NCBI RefSeq assembly: GCF_019063845.1
Contig: NZ_CP077683.1
Coordinates: 1,736,001-1,800,000 of the forward strand
DNA: 64,000 bases
From: Geomonas subterranea
GTDB taxonomy: Bacteria > Desulfobacterota > Desulfuromonadia > Geobacterales > Geobacteraceae
Reading direction: 5' to 3'
The notes below the pieces were generated by a model that saw nothing but the letters and a program-made list of their open reading frames with translations, did no database searches and was not told the DNA's origin. How positions within the stretch are numbered: the first letter of the stretch is position 1; every line of letters begins with the position of its first letter. The position numbers and the translations under genes are program-made. Below are positions 4,781-60,004 of this stretch, piece after piece.

Positions 4781-4956
4781 AGAAGAACCTTTTCGGGAAC
4801 AATAGTGATATCAACATCGTTGGATAATGCAGAAGGGTCGATAGAAAGTCAAGGAGAGGCGGGAAAAGCAATGGACAATTGGTTTCCTGAAGAGAGAGTG
4901 TTCCGCCAAGTGGGTCCACATCCCCCTCCCAGGGAGAGAGCGACTACCCCTGAGTT

Positions 4957-5325
4957 CACATCCCCTCTCCCTCTGGGAGAGGGTCAGGGTGAGGGAATCA
5001 CCAGGGGCGACATGACCAGCCGGCACCATCCCTCACCCGCCCTCCGGGCACCCTCTCCCAGAGGGAGAGGGACTACCTCAGGGTGTGAGGGGCTACCTCA
5101 GGGTGAGAGGGGCTACCCCGGGGTCCACATCCCCTCTCCCTCTGGGAGAGGGTCAGGGTGAGGGAGTCGCCAGGGGCGACATGACACCAGCCGGCACCAT
5201 CCCTCACCCGCCCTCCGGGCACCCTCTCCCAGGGGGAGAGGGACTACCTCAGGGTGAGAGGGACTACCCCGGGGTCCACATCCCCTCTCCCTCTGGGAGA
5301 GGGTCAGGGTGAGGGACTACCCGGG
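4957..5325. repeat. Tandem array of a 151-169-bp unit built from palindromic CTCTCCC/GGGAGAG modules
   Basis: The word CACATCCCCTCTCCCTCTGG recurs at 4957, 5126 and 5277, giving two near-identical units of 169 and 151 bp plus a partial third. Each unit carries a forward GGGAGAGGGTCAGGGTGAGG module and an inverted CCTCACCC...CTCTCCCAG partner, so the transcript could fold into long hairpins. The 18-bp length difference comes from one extra copy of a short internal GCTACCTCAGGGTGAG motif. The array fills most of the 657-bp gap between divergent rnr and slt; the same modules recur singly elsewhere in the window. Confidence 0.9.
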
Positions 5326-12647: not shown

Positions 12648-12960
12648 TTAACGCAAAGGCGCGAAGGCGCGAAGAAAACCAGGACTAGCAAAGGGTTAGA
12701 AGCAAAGCCCAATGTTATTCTGTGTCTTGGCGTCTTTGCGTTACATTTTCTGATTTACGCGGAGCTGGCAACGCCCTCACCCCGTCCCTCTCCCAGAGGG
12801 AGAGGGAGGAACAGGCTGAACGTCACCTCTTCCAGAGAGAGGGAGGAAAAGGCTGCATGTGGCCCACTCCCAAAAGAAGAGGAAGGAAAAGGCTGCATGT
12901 GGCCCCTCTCCCCGTGTCCCCTCTCCCTCTGGGAGAGGGGGCCCGAAGGGCGGGTGAGGG
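12648..12960. repeat. Two dispersed repeat types downstream of emrB
   Basis: Bases 12648-12745 hold an inverted pair of AACGCAAAGGCGCGAAGG-like and GCGTCTTTGCGTTA sequences, a family seen again at 36930-37018. Bases 12770-12960 hold three or more CTCTCCC/GGGAGAG modules, including a 25-base direct repeat around GGCTGCATGTGGCCC (12850 and 12890). No convincing gene lies in the 12599-13010 gap. Confidence 0.8.
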
Positions 12961-21572: not shown

Positions 21573-21712
21573 AGCAGGTGCGGTTTTTAGCAGGTGCGGT
21601 TATCCAGCAGGTGCGGTTATCCAGCAGGTGCGGTTATCCAGCAGGTGCGGTTATCCAGCAGGTGCGGTTATCCAGCAGGTGCGGTTTCTAGCAGGTACGG
21701 TTTCTAGCAGAT
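21573..21712. repeat. 16/17-bp tandem repeat immediately upstream of tilS
   Basis: Eight consecutive copies of AGCAGGTGCGGTTATCC or a 16-bp variant ending TTTTT or TTTCT, with five identical 17-bp copies in the middle and degenerate ones at the edges. The array begins 8 bases before the tilS ATG, i.e. over its 5' leader. 17 is not a multiple of three and there is no gene on either strand. Confidence 0.92.
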
Positions 21713-21758
21713 GCAGCGACGCAGGCGAGTTCCGCGGAGATGCGGTGCAGCGTCAGGG

Positions 21759-35195: not shown

Positions 35196-35693
35196 CTACT
35201 TTCTGAAGTCTTGAGGGACGCCGAGACGGTCCGCGGTCTCGCGCAACTGGTCGAGCCTTTTCTGCTGCGCCTGGACCCGGTCCTCGGCATACCTGATGCT
35301 GTTCTGAATGGAGAGGTAGTCGGATCGGTTCATGCGCGAGGTGTCGGAGAGCCTCCCCTTGAGGGTGGCCAGGTCCGATTCCGCGTTCTTCAGGTTGAAC
35401 TCGGCCTGCAGGAACTCCCTGCGCCAGGCGGCCTCGTCCTTGCCCCCGTAGACCTTCTTCCCCGCCTGTGCCTCGTCCGGCTTGGCCTTGGCGGGCTCGG
35501 CACCCCTCTCCTCGTTCACGACGGGGGCGGCACCTTCATCCCCCAGCCTCCTCGCCTTCTTGCGGTACTTCTTGGGGACCTGTCCCAGTTCATCGGCGAA
35601 GTTCACCGTACCCCTTTCGTCGGTCCACTGGTAGGTTTCCGCCACAGCGGACAGCGGGTAGAGCAGGAGCAACAACACGAGCAATCTCTTCAT
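35196..35693 (-). CDS. DUF4124-domain periplasmic protein
   Basis: 165 residues from ATG 35693, with AAAGGAGG upstream. A signal peptide (LLLLLYPLSAVA) is followed by a DUF4124 motif, ETYQWTDERGTVNFADELGQVP, whose central part is a short beta-hairpin of unknown function. A Lys/Glu/Ala-rich linker follows, then a helical coiled-coil-like region (about 100-155). Downstream of the HIT gene by 62 bases. Confidence 0.86.
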   Translation of the reverse strand: MKRLLVLLLLLYPLSAVAETYQWTDERGTVNFADELGQVPKKYRKKARRLGDEGAAPVVNEERGAEPAKAKPDEAQAGKKVYGGKDEAAWRREFLQAEFNLKNAESDLATLKGRLSDTSRMNRSDYLSIQNSIRYAEDRVQAQQKRLDQLRETADRLGVPQDFRK

Positions 35694-43064: not shown

Positions 43065-43137
43065 AAATCCGTGTCCGTTGGCGATCGCCGCCCCCCGGCG
43101 GCAGTCGCCACTCTCGCCCCTCTCTTCTCGCGCCGCC

Positions 43138-43191
43138 CATCACTCCCATCACTCCCATCACTCCCATCACTCCCATCACTCCCATCACTGC
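43138..43191. repeat. 9-bp tandem repeat CATCACTCC x6
   Basis: Five exact copies starting at 43138, 43147, 43156, 43165 and 43174, and a sixth ending in G. Located 75 bases after the regulator gene and about 140 bases upstream of the dctP enhancer dyads. Being a multiple of three it gives spurious repetitive reading frames on both strands. Confidence 0.93.
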
Positions 43192-56077: not shown

Positions 56078-56231
56078 GTCCCCTTGTTCCCGCCTCACCG
56101 TACGACCATTTCCCATTTGAACGTCGGCACTTCGATTTTAATCGAGATAGGTGTTGCGGAAATGGAATGGTTGGTTATAGTGGACACGCTGAACGTGATT
56201 AACGGATTCTAATCCAAACTTGGAGGTGACC

Positions 56232-56600
56232 ATGCTACGTCTAAGGTTCGATCTAAGCGGCAGACCAGCGACCTTGATCACCAACTGCAAACGATATTAT
56301 AACGGCTTGTGTGGGCTTGGCTTGTACCGCAACCCGCCAGATCAGGCGATATCGTTGGCCAGTTTGAACGAGGCAATCATCAATGCGGATCAGAAGTACC
56401 AAAGCGCCATCAATTACGATCGCGTGCAGATCATCCTGCGCAACAACGCTTTCAAGGAGCTGATCGAGAAGTTTAAAAAGGTTGTGGCTTACCTGCAGCT
56501 TGTAGCGACGGAAGATGACATTCCCGATCTGTTACAGGCTGGGGTCCAGGTGGTAGAGGTAAACAGGAAGAAGAAAGCACCGGCACCTGCGACGGATTAA
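56232..56600 (+). CDS. Conserved-looking protein of unknown function
   Basis: 122 residues from ATG 56232 with a strong GGAGGTGA two bases upstream. Soluble and mostly helical; Lys-rich middle (FKELIEKFKKVVAYLQL) and C-terminus. No family recognised. It has its own leader after the exosortase terminator and ends in the region holding the 42/43-bp array. Confidence 0.78.
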   Translation: MLRLRFDLSGRPATLITNCKRYYNGLCGLGLYRNPPDQAISLASLNEAIINADQKYQSAINYDRVQIILRNNAFKELIEKFKKVVAYLQLVATEDDIPDLLQAGVQVVEVNRKKKAPAPATD

Positions 56601-56816
56601 CCCCTCCTCTCACGCAATCCCGTGGAACTGAAATCGTTCCCTCGGCCAGCGCACCAACAGCAGGTCGAGGGAACGTGTTTACTTTCCGGCATTTGCTTCA
56701 CCTTCCCCCCAGGAAACTGCTCCCCCAGCGTCGCCCACCACTCTCTTTTAGACAAAGCCACGTCAAGTTTCAGCCGGTCAGATCTCATCACCGCAAGTAA
56801 AAACTCAATTTGGGTC

Positions 56817-57295
56817 AAACGGCATACCGTCTCACGGTACCCGGAACTCCATTTGATCTAAATGGCATACCACTTTGCCGAAATAGAGCTCCATTTATCT
56901 TAAACGGCATACCGCCTGACGTAAACCGGTACTCCATCCGACCTAATTGGCATACCACTTTGCCGAAATGGAGCTCCATTTATCTTAAACGGCATACCGC
57001 CTGACGTAAACCGGTACTCCATTTGACCTAAACGGCATACCACTTTGCCCAAATGGAGCTCCATTTACCTTAAACGGCATACCACTTGACGCAAACCGGT
57101 ACTCCATTTGACCTAAATGGCATACCACTTTGCCCAAATGGAGCTCCATTTACCTTAAACGGCATACCACTTTACCGAAATGGAGCTCCATTTACCTTAA
57201 ACGGCATACCGCCTGACGCAAACCGGTACTCCATTTGACCTAAATGGCATACCACTTTGCCCAAATGGAGCTCCATTTGCCTTAAACAGCATACC
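56817..57295. repeat. Array of twelve 42/43-bp half-units (85-bp composite tandem repeat)
   Basis: GGCATACC recurs at 56821, 56864, 56906, 56949, 56991, 57034, 57076, 57119, 57161, 57203, 57246 and, as AGCATACC, 57288: spacing alternates 43/42 with one 42/42. Type A half-units carry GACGTAAACCGGTACTCC; type B carry GAAATGGAGCTCCATTT, which includes a 16-bp perfect palindrome. CCATTTGACCTAAATGG joins A to B as a second dyad. Units are nearly identical, so there are no spacers as in CRISPR. The array lies between the 3' ends of two convergent genes. 85 is not divisible by three and no frame runs through. Confidence 0.95.
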
Positions 57296-57355: not shown

Positions 57356-59245
57356 TTACCGTAGCCCTTGCGCCAGCGGTTGGTGGTGGACGATATGCAG
57401 AGTCTTGCACGCACGGGTGATCGCGACGTACAGGAGGTTCCTGTCGGGGTCGGTCTGGCGGTAGTCGTAGGAACTGGGGTTGTAGAGGATGACGTTGGAG
57501 AACTCGACGCCTTTGATGGCGTGAGCATGGATGACCTGGACACCGGGTGAAAAGGAAACCTCCCCCTCCGCGTGCAGACCGGGTACACCGGCAAGGGCAG
57601 CGTGCAGTGCTTTGACATCAGCCTTCTTTTTGCAGATGACGCCGGTAAGAGAGGCGGGCGCCGCAAGGACCAGCGCCTCGACGATTTCCCGGATCTTAAC
57701 CATCGATTCGGCAGCTGTCTTCGTGGGGTGGAAGTCGACCACACCGGAGTGGGCCTTTGTGGTGTCTGCCTGCCGCCCGCTTACCTGGGCGGCCAGATCT
57801 ACGATCTCTCTCGGACACCGGTAGGAAACCGTCAGGTTCTCCTTTTCGAGTCCCTGCGAATGAAGCTGGGCCATGACACTGGAGAACCCTTGGGAGTCGA
57901 GGAAGCTCAGGATCTGCTGCTTTTCATCGGCGCAGATGGTGAGGCTTCGTGCCGCGGAGGTGGCGGCCACGATGGTACGCAGCTCGAGCGAGGAGAGATC
58001 CTGGGCTTCATCGACGACGATATGATCGTAGGCGTTGAGCGCCCCGACGACCACGGTGCCGGCCGGGCGCCGCAGCTGAGCCAGGCGGAGCAGGATGCTG
58101 ACATCGGAAAAGGAGACCACCCGCTCCTTTGCCGCGAACTTCCTTTGAACAACCTGCTGGAACTCATCGCCGGACTCCAGGCAGAGGGCGGCGACGACAT
58201 AGTCCTGCATGAGAAAGCGCCACAAGTCGGCTACCGGCTCAATCTTGGTAGTCTCCTTCACGTACTTCGCGAGAAGGGCCGGGACCCTGCTGCTTTTCTT
58301 CTGCGCCCCGAAGGGATCGTCGAAGACCGTCCTCAGCGAATGCACGCCGAGGGCGGCAAGGGCGGTCAGGGACCAGGCACTGTAGGTATCGACCCGGACA
58401 GGGCCAAGAAGCGTGTCGCTGCTTTGCTTGACATAGTCCCTCAGGACCCGGTTGAACATGAGCACGATGCACCGCTCCGGGCGATACTTCTGCGGTGCGT
58501 CGAACATGAGAAACGAGAGCCTGTGCAGCGCCACGGTAGTCTTGCCCGCACCGGCCGCGCCGTTTATGACGACCACGCCGTCCCTGAGCTTGGTGATGGC
58601 CCGGAACTGCTCCGGGGAGATCAACGCCGCTATCGAGTCCACCATCCGGTGATCCTCGGTCCGCTCCTTGGTGTCGGCGGTCGACTCGCCGGCTGCGCCG
58701 TTCTTGTGCCACGCGCCGCCCCGCAGTTCGTAGGTTTCGGAGGGAGTTTCGATGCGGTTGAGCGCCTTCCTGGTGATGGCCACCTTGTCCCGGCGGGTGA
58801 TCACCCCTTCCCTCTCCACCCCTCTGATGGTCAGCTCGTATTCTTCGCCGATGTCATACCCCTCGTAGAAGGGGCCGGTGATCTCCGCCTTTCTCCAGTC
58901 GATGATGACCACCCGCTGGCCGTCCATGAGCGTCTGGTTTCCGATCAGGTACTCCTTCTTGCCGATCCGGCGGTCGTTGTCGTGGATGCCGAGAATGCCG
59001 AAGTAGGGTGAGGCCTGCTGGGCGTATTCATGAAGGTATTTGCGCGGAGAGTGGTGCCCGTGCTCGATCAGTTTTTCCGCCAGGTCGTTCTTCTCTCGCC
59101 AGTCCACCGAGGCCAGGCGCTGCTGTTCCAGTTCCTTCGTGTACGCCTCGTGCCTCGCGATGGTCTGCAGGCGGTCGACCGCATACCGCCCGATCGCCTC
59201 ATGAACCCTGTCCAGCCGTTCAATTTCCTTTTTTACAATTTCCAT
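57356..59245 (-). CDS. HelD-like superfamily 1 helicase/ATPase
   Basis: 629 residues from ATG 59245 (GGAGAG upstream); the open frame continues upstream only through a hairpin leader. An N-terminal coiled coil (about 1-60) and a YFGILGIHDNDRRIGKKEYL ... VVIIDWRKAEITGPFYEGY region match HelD (helicase IV-like) proteins. Walker A GAAGAGKTTVALHRL is at about 229, Walker B IVVDEAQDLSSLE, and the UvrD C-terminal part ends NLLYVAITRACKTLHIV. HelD-type proteins release stalled RNA polymerase; others repair DNA. Which applies is unclear. It lies in accessory DNA. Confidence 0.88.
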   Translation of the reverse strand: MEIVKKEIERLDRVHEAIGRYAVDRLQTIARHEAYTKELEQQRLASVDWREKNDLAEKLIEHGHHSPRKYLHEYAQQASPYFGILGIHDNDRRIGKKEYLIGNQTLMDGQRVVIIDWRKAEITGPFYEGYDIGEEYELTIRGVEREGVITRRDKVAITRKALNRIETPSETYELRGGAWHKNGAAGESTADTKERTEDHRMVDSIAALISPEQFRAITKLRDGVVVINGAAGAGKTTVALHRLSFLMFDAPQKYRPERCIVLMFNRVLRDYVKQSSDTLLGPVRVDTYSAWSLTALAALGVHSLRTVFDDPFGAQKKSSRVPALLAKYVKETTKIEPVADLWRFLMQDYVVAALCLESGDEFQQVVQRKFAAKERVVSFSDVSILLRLAQLRRPAGTVVVGALNAYDHIVVDEAQDLSSLELRTIVAATSAARSLTICADEKQQILSFLDSQGFSSVMAQLHSQGLEKENLTVSYRCPREIVDLAAQVSGRQADTTKAHSGVVDFHPTKTAAESMVKIREIVEALVLAAPASLTGVICKKKADVKALHAALAGVPGLHAEGEVSFSPGVQVIHAHAIKGVEFSNVILYNPSSYDYRQTDPDRNLLYVAITRACKTLHIVHHQPLAQGLR

Positions 59246-59267
59246 CGACTCTCCACAGCCGTAACAT

Positions 59268-59299
59268 AAAAAAGCACCCACAGGAAACCCCGTAAGTGC
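59268..59299 (-). promoter_or_regulatory. Terminator-like hairpin in the helD leader
   Basis: On the minus strand GCACTTACGG (59299-59290) can pair with CTGTGGGTGC (59283-59274) using some G-U pairs, followed by six T at 59273-59268 and then, 22 bases on, the helicase start. It could be a terminator for upstream transcription or an attenuator. The other bases of the 59246-59548 gap show nothing clear. Confidence 0.55.
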
Positions 59300-59548
59300 C
59301 TTGTAACCGTCATTATGGGTGGTTCTCGAGATAGGTCTTAATCCCCCCCATCTCACGACGCTCAATGCCGACTAGATATACCCATATTGCTCTCCTCTTT
59401 CAAGCACTTTCTCCAGCATACCGCCGATATCCTGCGCCGGGATACGCAGAGAAACGCCTGAAACCGGCGTTCCCCGTAACCTCAGAAGAAATGCATAAAC
59501 CCATCTGCCCTCCGGAAACGGGCTGGGCTGGGAAAGCGGGGGCCATCC

Positions 59549-60004
59549 CTATTGCTTTTTTATTCTGGAACGAATCGCCATGAGACGGCTACAAAACTCT
59601 TCCTCCGTCAAAACTGTCTTCCTGGGGTCGTGTTCGCCAATGCTGTGAGTCAGAACTTCCTCACCGGTAGCCAAAAGATCCGTGGCAAAATCAGCTGACA
59701 ACAAGGCAGCCTCATATAACCGGTCAAGTAGTTGCTGATATTCCGGCGACAAACGATCATAAGACTTGCCTTGCCACCACAGTGTTTGACTGCTTTGCCA
59801 GGCTTCGTTCCTTGTCTGGCCAATAGTCTTAGCTTCTTTGCCAGACATCATGCAGACCAGCCTTTGCATTTCAGGGTCGTCGAACTTAAATGCCTGAAGG
59901 GCTCCTTCTAGGCATGCACACTCGAAATTATCCAAGACAAATGCACGCGGAGTGAAATTCGACAGTCTTCCCGCAATACCGACCGTATAGCCACCAACAT
60001 CCAT
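59549..60004 (-). CDS. NADAR-like domain protein
   Basis: 151 residues from ATG 60004 with GGGAGGTG upstream. RLSNFTPRAFVLDNFECACLEG-then-ALQAFKF aligns by eye with the NADAR/YbiA core (xSNFxPxxxxxDGxxxxxxEHxxQAxKF), and a conserved Trp segment, LLATGEEVLTHS and a closing LTEEEFCSRLMAIR helix match its C-terminal half. The usual EH is EG here. YbiA cleaves N-glycosidic bonds of riboflavin intermediates; other NADAR proteins act on ADP-ribose or nucleotide conjugates. The match is distant and made without a search. Confidence 0.6.
   Translation of the reverse strand: MDVGGYTVGIAGRLSNFTPRAFVLDNFECACLEGALQAFKFDDPEMQRLVCMMSGKEAKTIGQTRNEAWQSSQTLWWQGKSYDRLSPEYQQLLDRLYEAALLSADFATDLLATGEEVLTHSIGEHDPRKTVLTEEEFCSRLMAIRSRIKKQ

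Follow-up and report, generated by a model that had tools for sequence, protein, structure and literature searches.

What kind of element is the long tandem repeat that lies between two convergent genes of Geomonas subterranea? The window, i.e. the whole stretch of 64,000 nucleotides that was analysed, carries this repeat beside p126, a gene whose product belongs to no known family. Our analysis revealed that most of the p126-family genes tested have their own phased array beside them. The spacing of these arrays is close to two helical turns of DNA, and the unit sequences are unrelated between paralog classes. This gene-array pattern points to an undescribed system made of a protein and its DNA sites.

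The array of the window and its surroundings

The locus comprises the following features:
56232..56600, plus strand: p126, a 122-residue protein of no known family, predicted to be helical, member of the array-associated family
56635..56675, plus strand: terminator-like inverted repeat of 10 bp, CGTTCCCTCG...CGAGGGAACG and then TGTTTACTTT, recognised by eye
56817..57295, no strand assigned: tandem array of about 22 units of 21-22 bp, AAnnGG-N4-CCnnTT
57356..59365, minus strand: UvrD/HelD-like helicase, the convergent neighbour of the array

An earlier note on this DNA had described twelve copies of one element at strictly alternating intervals. The array and its twelve elements were recovered, but only eleven of them are exact copies of GGCATACC, the remaining one being the variant AGCATACC, and the alternation breaks once (43,42,43,42,43,42,43,42,42,43,42). 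Exact GGCATACC occurs 12 times in the window, 11 times in the array and once at 35286, which is far above the 1.28 occurrences expected from shuffles. The 42/43-bp unit of the earlier note does exist as a higher order, but the elementary step is half as long, about 21 bp. The array contains 21 GG-N4-CC cores, 18 of which follow one another at steps of 21 or 22 bases, with a mean period of 21.24 and the consensus AAnnGG-N4-CCnnTT. Given that two unit types alternate, the units of 21-22 bp are grouped into higher orders of 42/43 and 85 bp, and Tandem Repeats Finder listed the array at period 21 as well as at both of these. AAATGGAGCTCCATTT was found five times and CCATTTGACCTAAATGG twice in the window, AAATGG-N4-CCATTT is absent from the rest of the genome outside the array, and the first AGCTCC copy of the array carries a single change. 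Since steps of 21 and 22 are mixed, a regularly repeated reading frame is excluded. CRISPR was ruled out as well: the units are contiguous, the entire sequence is repeated and there are no unique spacers. No Rfam family matched the window at gathering thresholds.

Other repeats of the window were recorded in passing. A 17-bp tandem repeat (AGCAGGTGCGGTTATCC) with 8.5 copies lies at 21573-21714, and its period is unrelated to that of the array; positions 43136-43189 hold six perfect copies of the 9-bp repeat CCCATCACT. A 171-bp unit rich in CCCTCTCC-type sequence occurs twice at 4928-5275, with a similar-looking stretch at 12783-12927.

As the earlier note had stated, the array lies between the 3' ends of two genes, the stop of p126 at 56600 and the end of the helicase frame at 57356. 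It begins 217 bp behind p126, and the terminator-like inverted repeat falls between the two; this repeat was not listed by the terminator scan, the permitted length of which is exceeded by its loop. The helicase is a neighbour only, and it was not found beside the p126-array pairs of L048, L049 and L050. Upstream of the helicase, at 59549-60004, lies a gene matching Pfam Phage_30_3 (Bacteriophage protein GP30.3) with an E value of 2.4e-70.

A protein family with phased arrays beside its genes

With regard to p126 itself, for which an alternative TTG start is found at 56220, no match was obtained in Pfam, NCBIfam, PHROGs or PADLOC. For the family, nothing came above cut-off or at E<=0.001, including in PDB sequences (best 0.67) and with Foldseek against PDB and BFVD, and neither the sequence nor the Foldseek structure comparisons returned a recognised DNA-binding fold. 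The structural model of p126, in which the first residue was left out, shows four helices, short strands and a basic tail (pLDDT 88), and by our reading there are a basic C-terminal tail and conserved basic residues. The homologs include paralogs elsewhere in the same genomes that are 23-44% identical to p126. With the broad profile A6, 15 members were counted in the window's genome; a sixteenth match, the end of a 1839-residue protein, was left out of this census. The distant members of this genome comprise 161-245 residues. In several of the longer members, the C-terminal part is weakly fibronectin III-like, below the Pfam cut-off, and the AlphaFold2 model of one longer member places beta strands after the same helical domain (pLDDT 78, pTM 0.47).

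The pairing of genes and arrays was measured by autocorrelation at lags of 10-60 on 50 rows, one gene appearing twice, that is on 49 genes of 81 p126 matches, a set limited by the DNA fetched and not picked by outcome. In the 900 bp downstream, the best lag was 20-23 or 41-45 for 45 of the 49 genes. The same lag class was best upstream for 9 of the 49, which is about the level of chance (9 of 51 lags). When an identity of at least 0.5 was required, the values were 34/49 downstream and 1/49 upstream. Three long-type genes (L143, L158, L159) are exceptions with a 21-base lag upstream instead of downstream, and the gene at L157 shows the lag class on neither side. This one-sidedness also argues against the terminal repeats of an IS21-type element, to which the earlier note had thought the array might belong.

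The arrays of the family usually start about 100-700 bp 3' of the gene. Their units are unrelated in sequence from one paralog class to another (e.g. TTGATGACCATCGCAACAATG), while the period of 21-22 bp is kept. The mean periods of 27 arrays range from 20.4 to 22.1, near two turns of DNA, in a scan confined to 19.5-24, and the phase is retained in diverged arrays at a lag identity of about 50%. Some of the arrays lie within open frames, which is possible for a 21-bp unit; nevertheless, steps of 21 and 22 in mixture, or of 20, 41 or 43, cannot encode a regular short peptide repeat. Convergent neighbours were rejected as a defining feature, 14 of 21 loci being convergent and 7 co-directional by crude ORF picking.

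In the census of the 15 genes of the window's genome, a strong array was found 3' of 11 genes (identity 0.55-0.98) and 5' of one gene. Two others gave weak signals (0.46), one 3' and one 5', that lie above all 60 shuffles, and one member (L217) is without an array. The steps in this genome are 20, 20.5 (as 41) and 21, besides the 21.24 of the window.

Evenly spaced samples of three genomes (1.2 Mb) gave the same picture from the side of the DNA: seven of eight arrays lie by a family gene, and seven of eight family genes have an array. Twenty 20-kb pieces of the window's genome (400 kb) contained one array at or above the threshold of 0.55 with the right lag, located directly behind a previously unfound long-type family gene, the sole family gene detected there. 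Forty pieces of G011 and G013 (800 kb) contained seven arrays, six of them at most 900 bp from a family gene; the seventh (L261) lies behind an NMT1-like gene with no family gene by it. Six of the seven family genes in these pieces have an array, the count including L250, a family gene without an array at 0.55 that was already known before sampling. L243, which had been set deliberately over a sod array, was excluded from the sample counts, and L203 and L205 (lag 21 or 22, identity 0.51-0.52), which a scan of the window's genome with the lower cut-off of 0.50 had picked up, fell below the threshold and were not counted; Tandem Repeats Finder reported three copies for the former and an 11-bp repeat for the latter. 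Repeats of other periods at 0.55 or above behave differently: none of six such regions in G011 and G013 (lags 15, 18, 39) has a family gene within 900 bp, and four in the window's genome (lags 15, 24, 39) lie in pieces without a family gene.

Repeats of other kinds were also seen. A 77-bp tandem repeat of 13 copies with the palindrome GGGCGAATAATCATTCGCCC occupies L192 15442-16443 in the window's genome. Very long repeats with a 15-base lag and identity up to 1.0 are found at L210 9912-12601 and at L249 2414-7590, the latter inside one open frame of 5.6 kb.

A search with p126 proper found matches in 22 of the 141 genomes of the order, belonging to 4 of its 29 genera. Besides the window's genus, three others (G041, G053, G055) contributed genes to the test of pairing. 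Unless it was transferred from one genus to another, the pairing of gene and array therefore predates the species. By its named records, the group consists of Geomonas and Citrifermentans, Geomesophilobacter lying beyond it. When 395 genomes of the phylum were scanned with profiles built on the longer members, family members were recovered only from the window's genome; all other hits were short segments within long proteins (621-2324 residues). These scans were weak, being confined to the best 7 or 8 candidates per genome and to a sample with one genome of the genus, and they recovered only 8 and 7 of the 15 members in the window's genome; a wider spread of the family is therefore possible. 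A phage or plasmid origin was considered and rejected, p126 being unmatched in phage records and the long-type protein in plasmid records; a viral origin of the family was likewise rejected, with no family match in viral contigs.

Shared motifs, symmetry and competing explanations

The genome of the window (4.99 Mb, one contig) contains one further array alike in sequence, about 588 kb away, which lies 3' of an iron/manganese superoxide dismutase (sod) gene and has a convergent MFS transporter opposite. A sequence profile of four units (R1) matched in at least 10 of the 19 genomes of the genus, and gave none among the matches listed for the other 122 genomes of the order under stricter filters. 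Most of the R1-like arrays that were located lie behind sod or behind p126 homologs. Both G013 and G005 also have one behind a histidine-kinase gene, and a weak match in G005 (L163) is flanked by different genes again. Units are homogenised within an array and differ between species, and array length varies too. The contigs of L087 (G014) and L093 (G010) end a few hundred bases past sod, as if a long array had broken the assembly. Arrays without a family gene nearby are those of the sod site, L161, L162, L163, L261 and L276, the last judged from listed ORFs rather than by a profile search.

In four of six genomes, the sod array most similar to the p126 array is the one in the same genome, with similarities of 0.96 in G006, 0.81 in G002 and 0.73 in both G000 and G012, against a shuffle baseline of 0.55. 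For G000 and G012, the margins over the sod array of another genome are small (0.734 vs 0.731 and 0.726 vs 0.721), and in G011 and G014 the p126 array is not most like its own sod array. The sod site of G002 includes a sub-array sharing the 22-bp unit of the p126 array of that genome. The arrays of a second paralog class, compared with sod arrays in four genomes, remain near the baseline (0.50-0.57). A further pair of similar arrays in the window's genome consists of the one at 2202.5 kb and the one that accompanies the gene at 3519 kb (0.699; second best 0.594; baseline 0.55); the ORFs inspected at 2202.5 kb included no family gene. The kinase-site arrays of G013 and G005 resemble p126-type arrays at 0.65-0.73, with a baseline near 0.58, although in G013 the kinase-site array has a lower similarity to the p126 array of the genome itself (0.653) than to that of G004 (0.708). 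The L261 array has a weak likeness (0.62) to one array of the window's genome. Judging from these similarities, motifs shared by distant sites suggest either that one protein binds both or that sequence was copied from site to site. Array similarity follows protein similarity with r 0.64, a correlation that linked descent alone would give.

Dyad symmetry is clear in the window and in several related arrays, but it was rejected as a defining feature. Of 39 arrays, 9 reach significance at p<=0.02 (10 at 0.05) and 30 do not reach it at 0.02, so that spacing, and not symmetry, is what the arrays have in common; the pooled Fisher value treats related arrays as independent and was not relied on. Mismatches within the dyads lean to G-T on the sod-sense strand in all four sod arrays (29:5, 35:4, 33:6, 51:0) and to A-C on the p126-sense strand in three of four p126 arrays (25:5, 29:6, 13:1; the fourth 12:16).

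We lean slightly towards a putative pair formed by each p126-family protein and a cognate DNA array that it binds cooperatively. The helically phased, cooperatively bound array was among the proposals of the earlier note and fits best, although the partner gene and the 21-bp step had been missed. Each family protein would be a putative DNA-binding protein, probably a dimer or a higher oligomer. The dyads are compatible with dimer sites, which is a weak part of the model. Sites two helical turns apart would place the bound copies on one face of the DNA and favour cooperative binding, and motif and protein would be expected to co-evolve. A distant array with the same motif, for the window's paralog the one behind sod, may be a second target, and binding at two sites could enable the protein to cluster or bridge distant loci. 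Chromosome anchoring, insulation between genes and self-maintenance of the module are candidate roles of such a nucleoprotein.

The arrays could instead be transcribed into RNAs of repeated small hairpins, bound by the family protein or by another one, for which the repeat-RNA antitoxins, in which repeated RNA is protein-bound, offer a parallel. Structured RNA had also been raised in the earlier note, and for the array of the window this part stands: on either strand its folding is far stronger than that of dinucleotide shuffles (z -11.3 and -14.7). A rough test, in which the first 300 bases were compared with 20 mononucleotide shuffles, gave good folding of both strands (z below -4) for 17 of 35 arrays and no clear structure on either strand (z above -3) for 8 of the 35 (e.g. 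B_G005, B_G004, B_G007 and L213). The wobble-type mismatches of the sod arrays, which lean to one strand in each case, are what such RNAs might leave, but base-composition skew alone could explain them. Furthermore, no sigma-70-like promoter was detected in two array regions scanned in the window's genome, where about one was expected by chance, and a step of two DNA turns is left without a reason. We consider transcription into hairpin RNAs unlikely. That the arrays are functionless satellites, 21-bp tandem duplications being favoured at these genes or in their surroundings, would account for units that are uniform within an array and different between species, and for the variable array length. 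We nevertheless find it improbable, because many arrays of unrelated sequence next to genes of a single protein family have the same period, the six repeat regions of other periods have no link to family genes, the phase outlasts a fall of unit identity to about one half, and distant arrays have a motif in common. The earlier note had held that absence of conservation would favour a neutral satellite; it had not foreseen that spacing and gene partner would be kept more than sequence.

A mobile origin has its own evidence in a boundary motif, GTGTAAAnGATTTTGTGTAAA, which we take to resemble the ends of IS256-type transposons and which was found at the outer array end at six places:
L007 1926, L011 1751, L076 2471, L188 1117, L261 19781, L276 3536

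In the window's genome it has three occurrences with at most 3 mismatches, each at an array. In all fetched DNA, a sample biased towards arrays since it was chosen largely for them, the six distinct occurrences with at most 4 mismatches all adjoin an array, each time on the same side. Gene-array units, or arrays alone, could thus be mobile elements or their remains, with the arrays as transposition sites and the boundary motif as an element end, and arrays of similar motif at unrelated loci would agree with this. However, only a few arrays carry the motif, which was therefore rejected as a part of every array; most, including that of the window, are without it, and no matching opposite end was seen. 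In addition, p126 matches no transposase family, and the A-type array lies beside the same helicase gene in several species. Mobility is, in our judgement, very improbable.

Returning to cooperative binding of cognate arrays, a more far-reaching form of it can be put forward tentatively, and we regard it as rather less than probable: a single chromosome would carry a dozen or more pairs in which each paralog reads only its own fast-evolving phased array, some of the paralogs recognising another array at a distance of hundreds of kilobases as well. Such pairs would constitute self-specified, mutually orthogonal DNA addresses by which chosen chromosome sites could be bridged or anchored.

Significance and comparison with known systems

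Annotation by the families searched would give just a hypothetical protein and an unexplained repeat. The present analysis turns the repeat into a testable rule, namely an unknown protein family with private arrays of common spacing. Should the proteins prove to bind their arrays, this genome would contain about a dozen protein-DNA pairs with natural orthogonality, and they would provide a system for studying the co-evolution of proteins and sites and possibly a new kind of bacterial chromosome organisation.

Among the parts of the literature covered here, which included PMC2996986, PMC2700814 and PMC3543383, no report was found of a protein family whose genes are coupled to arrays of this type. 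Multicopy intergenic sequence families, some of them direct repeats of 6 to 42 nucleotides, are described for Geobacter bemidjiensis in the portion of that report accessible to us, which leaves their meaning open (PMC2996986). This lineage is related, and its families could include some of the arrays found here; supplement aside, a protein partner, a shared period and helical phasing go unmentioned in that portion (PMC2996986).

IS21-type elements carry repeats at both ends together with istA/istB, whereas the arrays described here are one-sided, and family searches with four proteins of the window yielded no transposase. In type III toxin-antitoxin systems, the RNA repeats lie upstream of a ToxN-like gene, whereas here they are mostly downstream; no toxin family was matched in Pfam or PADLOC by the p126-family members tested. 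Plasmid iterons are helically phased tandem sites with a spacing of about 20-22 bp, located near the gene of the protein that binds them. Phased direct repeats two turns apart are likewise found here (20.4-22.1 in 27 arrays). The present arrays differ in being chromosomal, in forming many paralogous pairs per genome and in usually lying behind the gene, and p126 has no match to a replication initiator and belongs to no Pfam or NCBIfam family. RAYTs are HuH enzymes, and REPs are mostly dispersed singlets or pairs; in contrast, p126 of the window contains no histidine, and the arrays here are long and phased. Nevertheless, as far as the available parts of two reports describe them, REP/REPIN sequences and their RAYT (TnpA-REP) resemble the present system in that the gene of a protein is accompanied by private short repeats, which are also found elsewhere in the genome (PMC3116915, PMC8266576).
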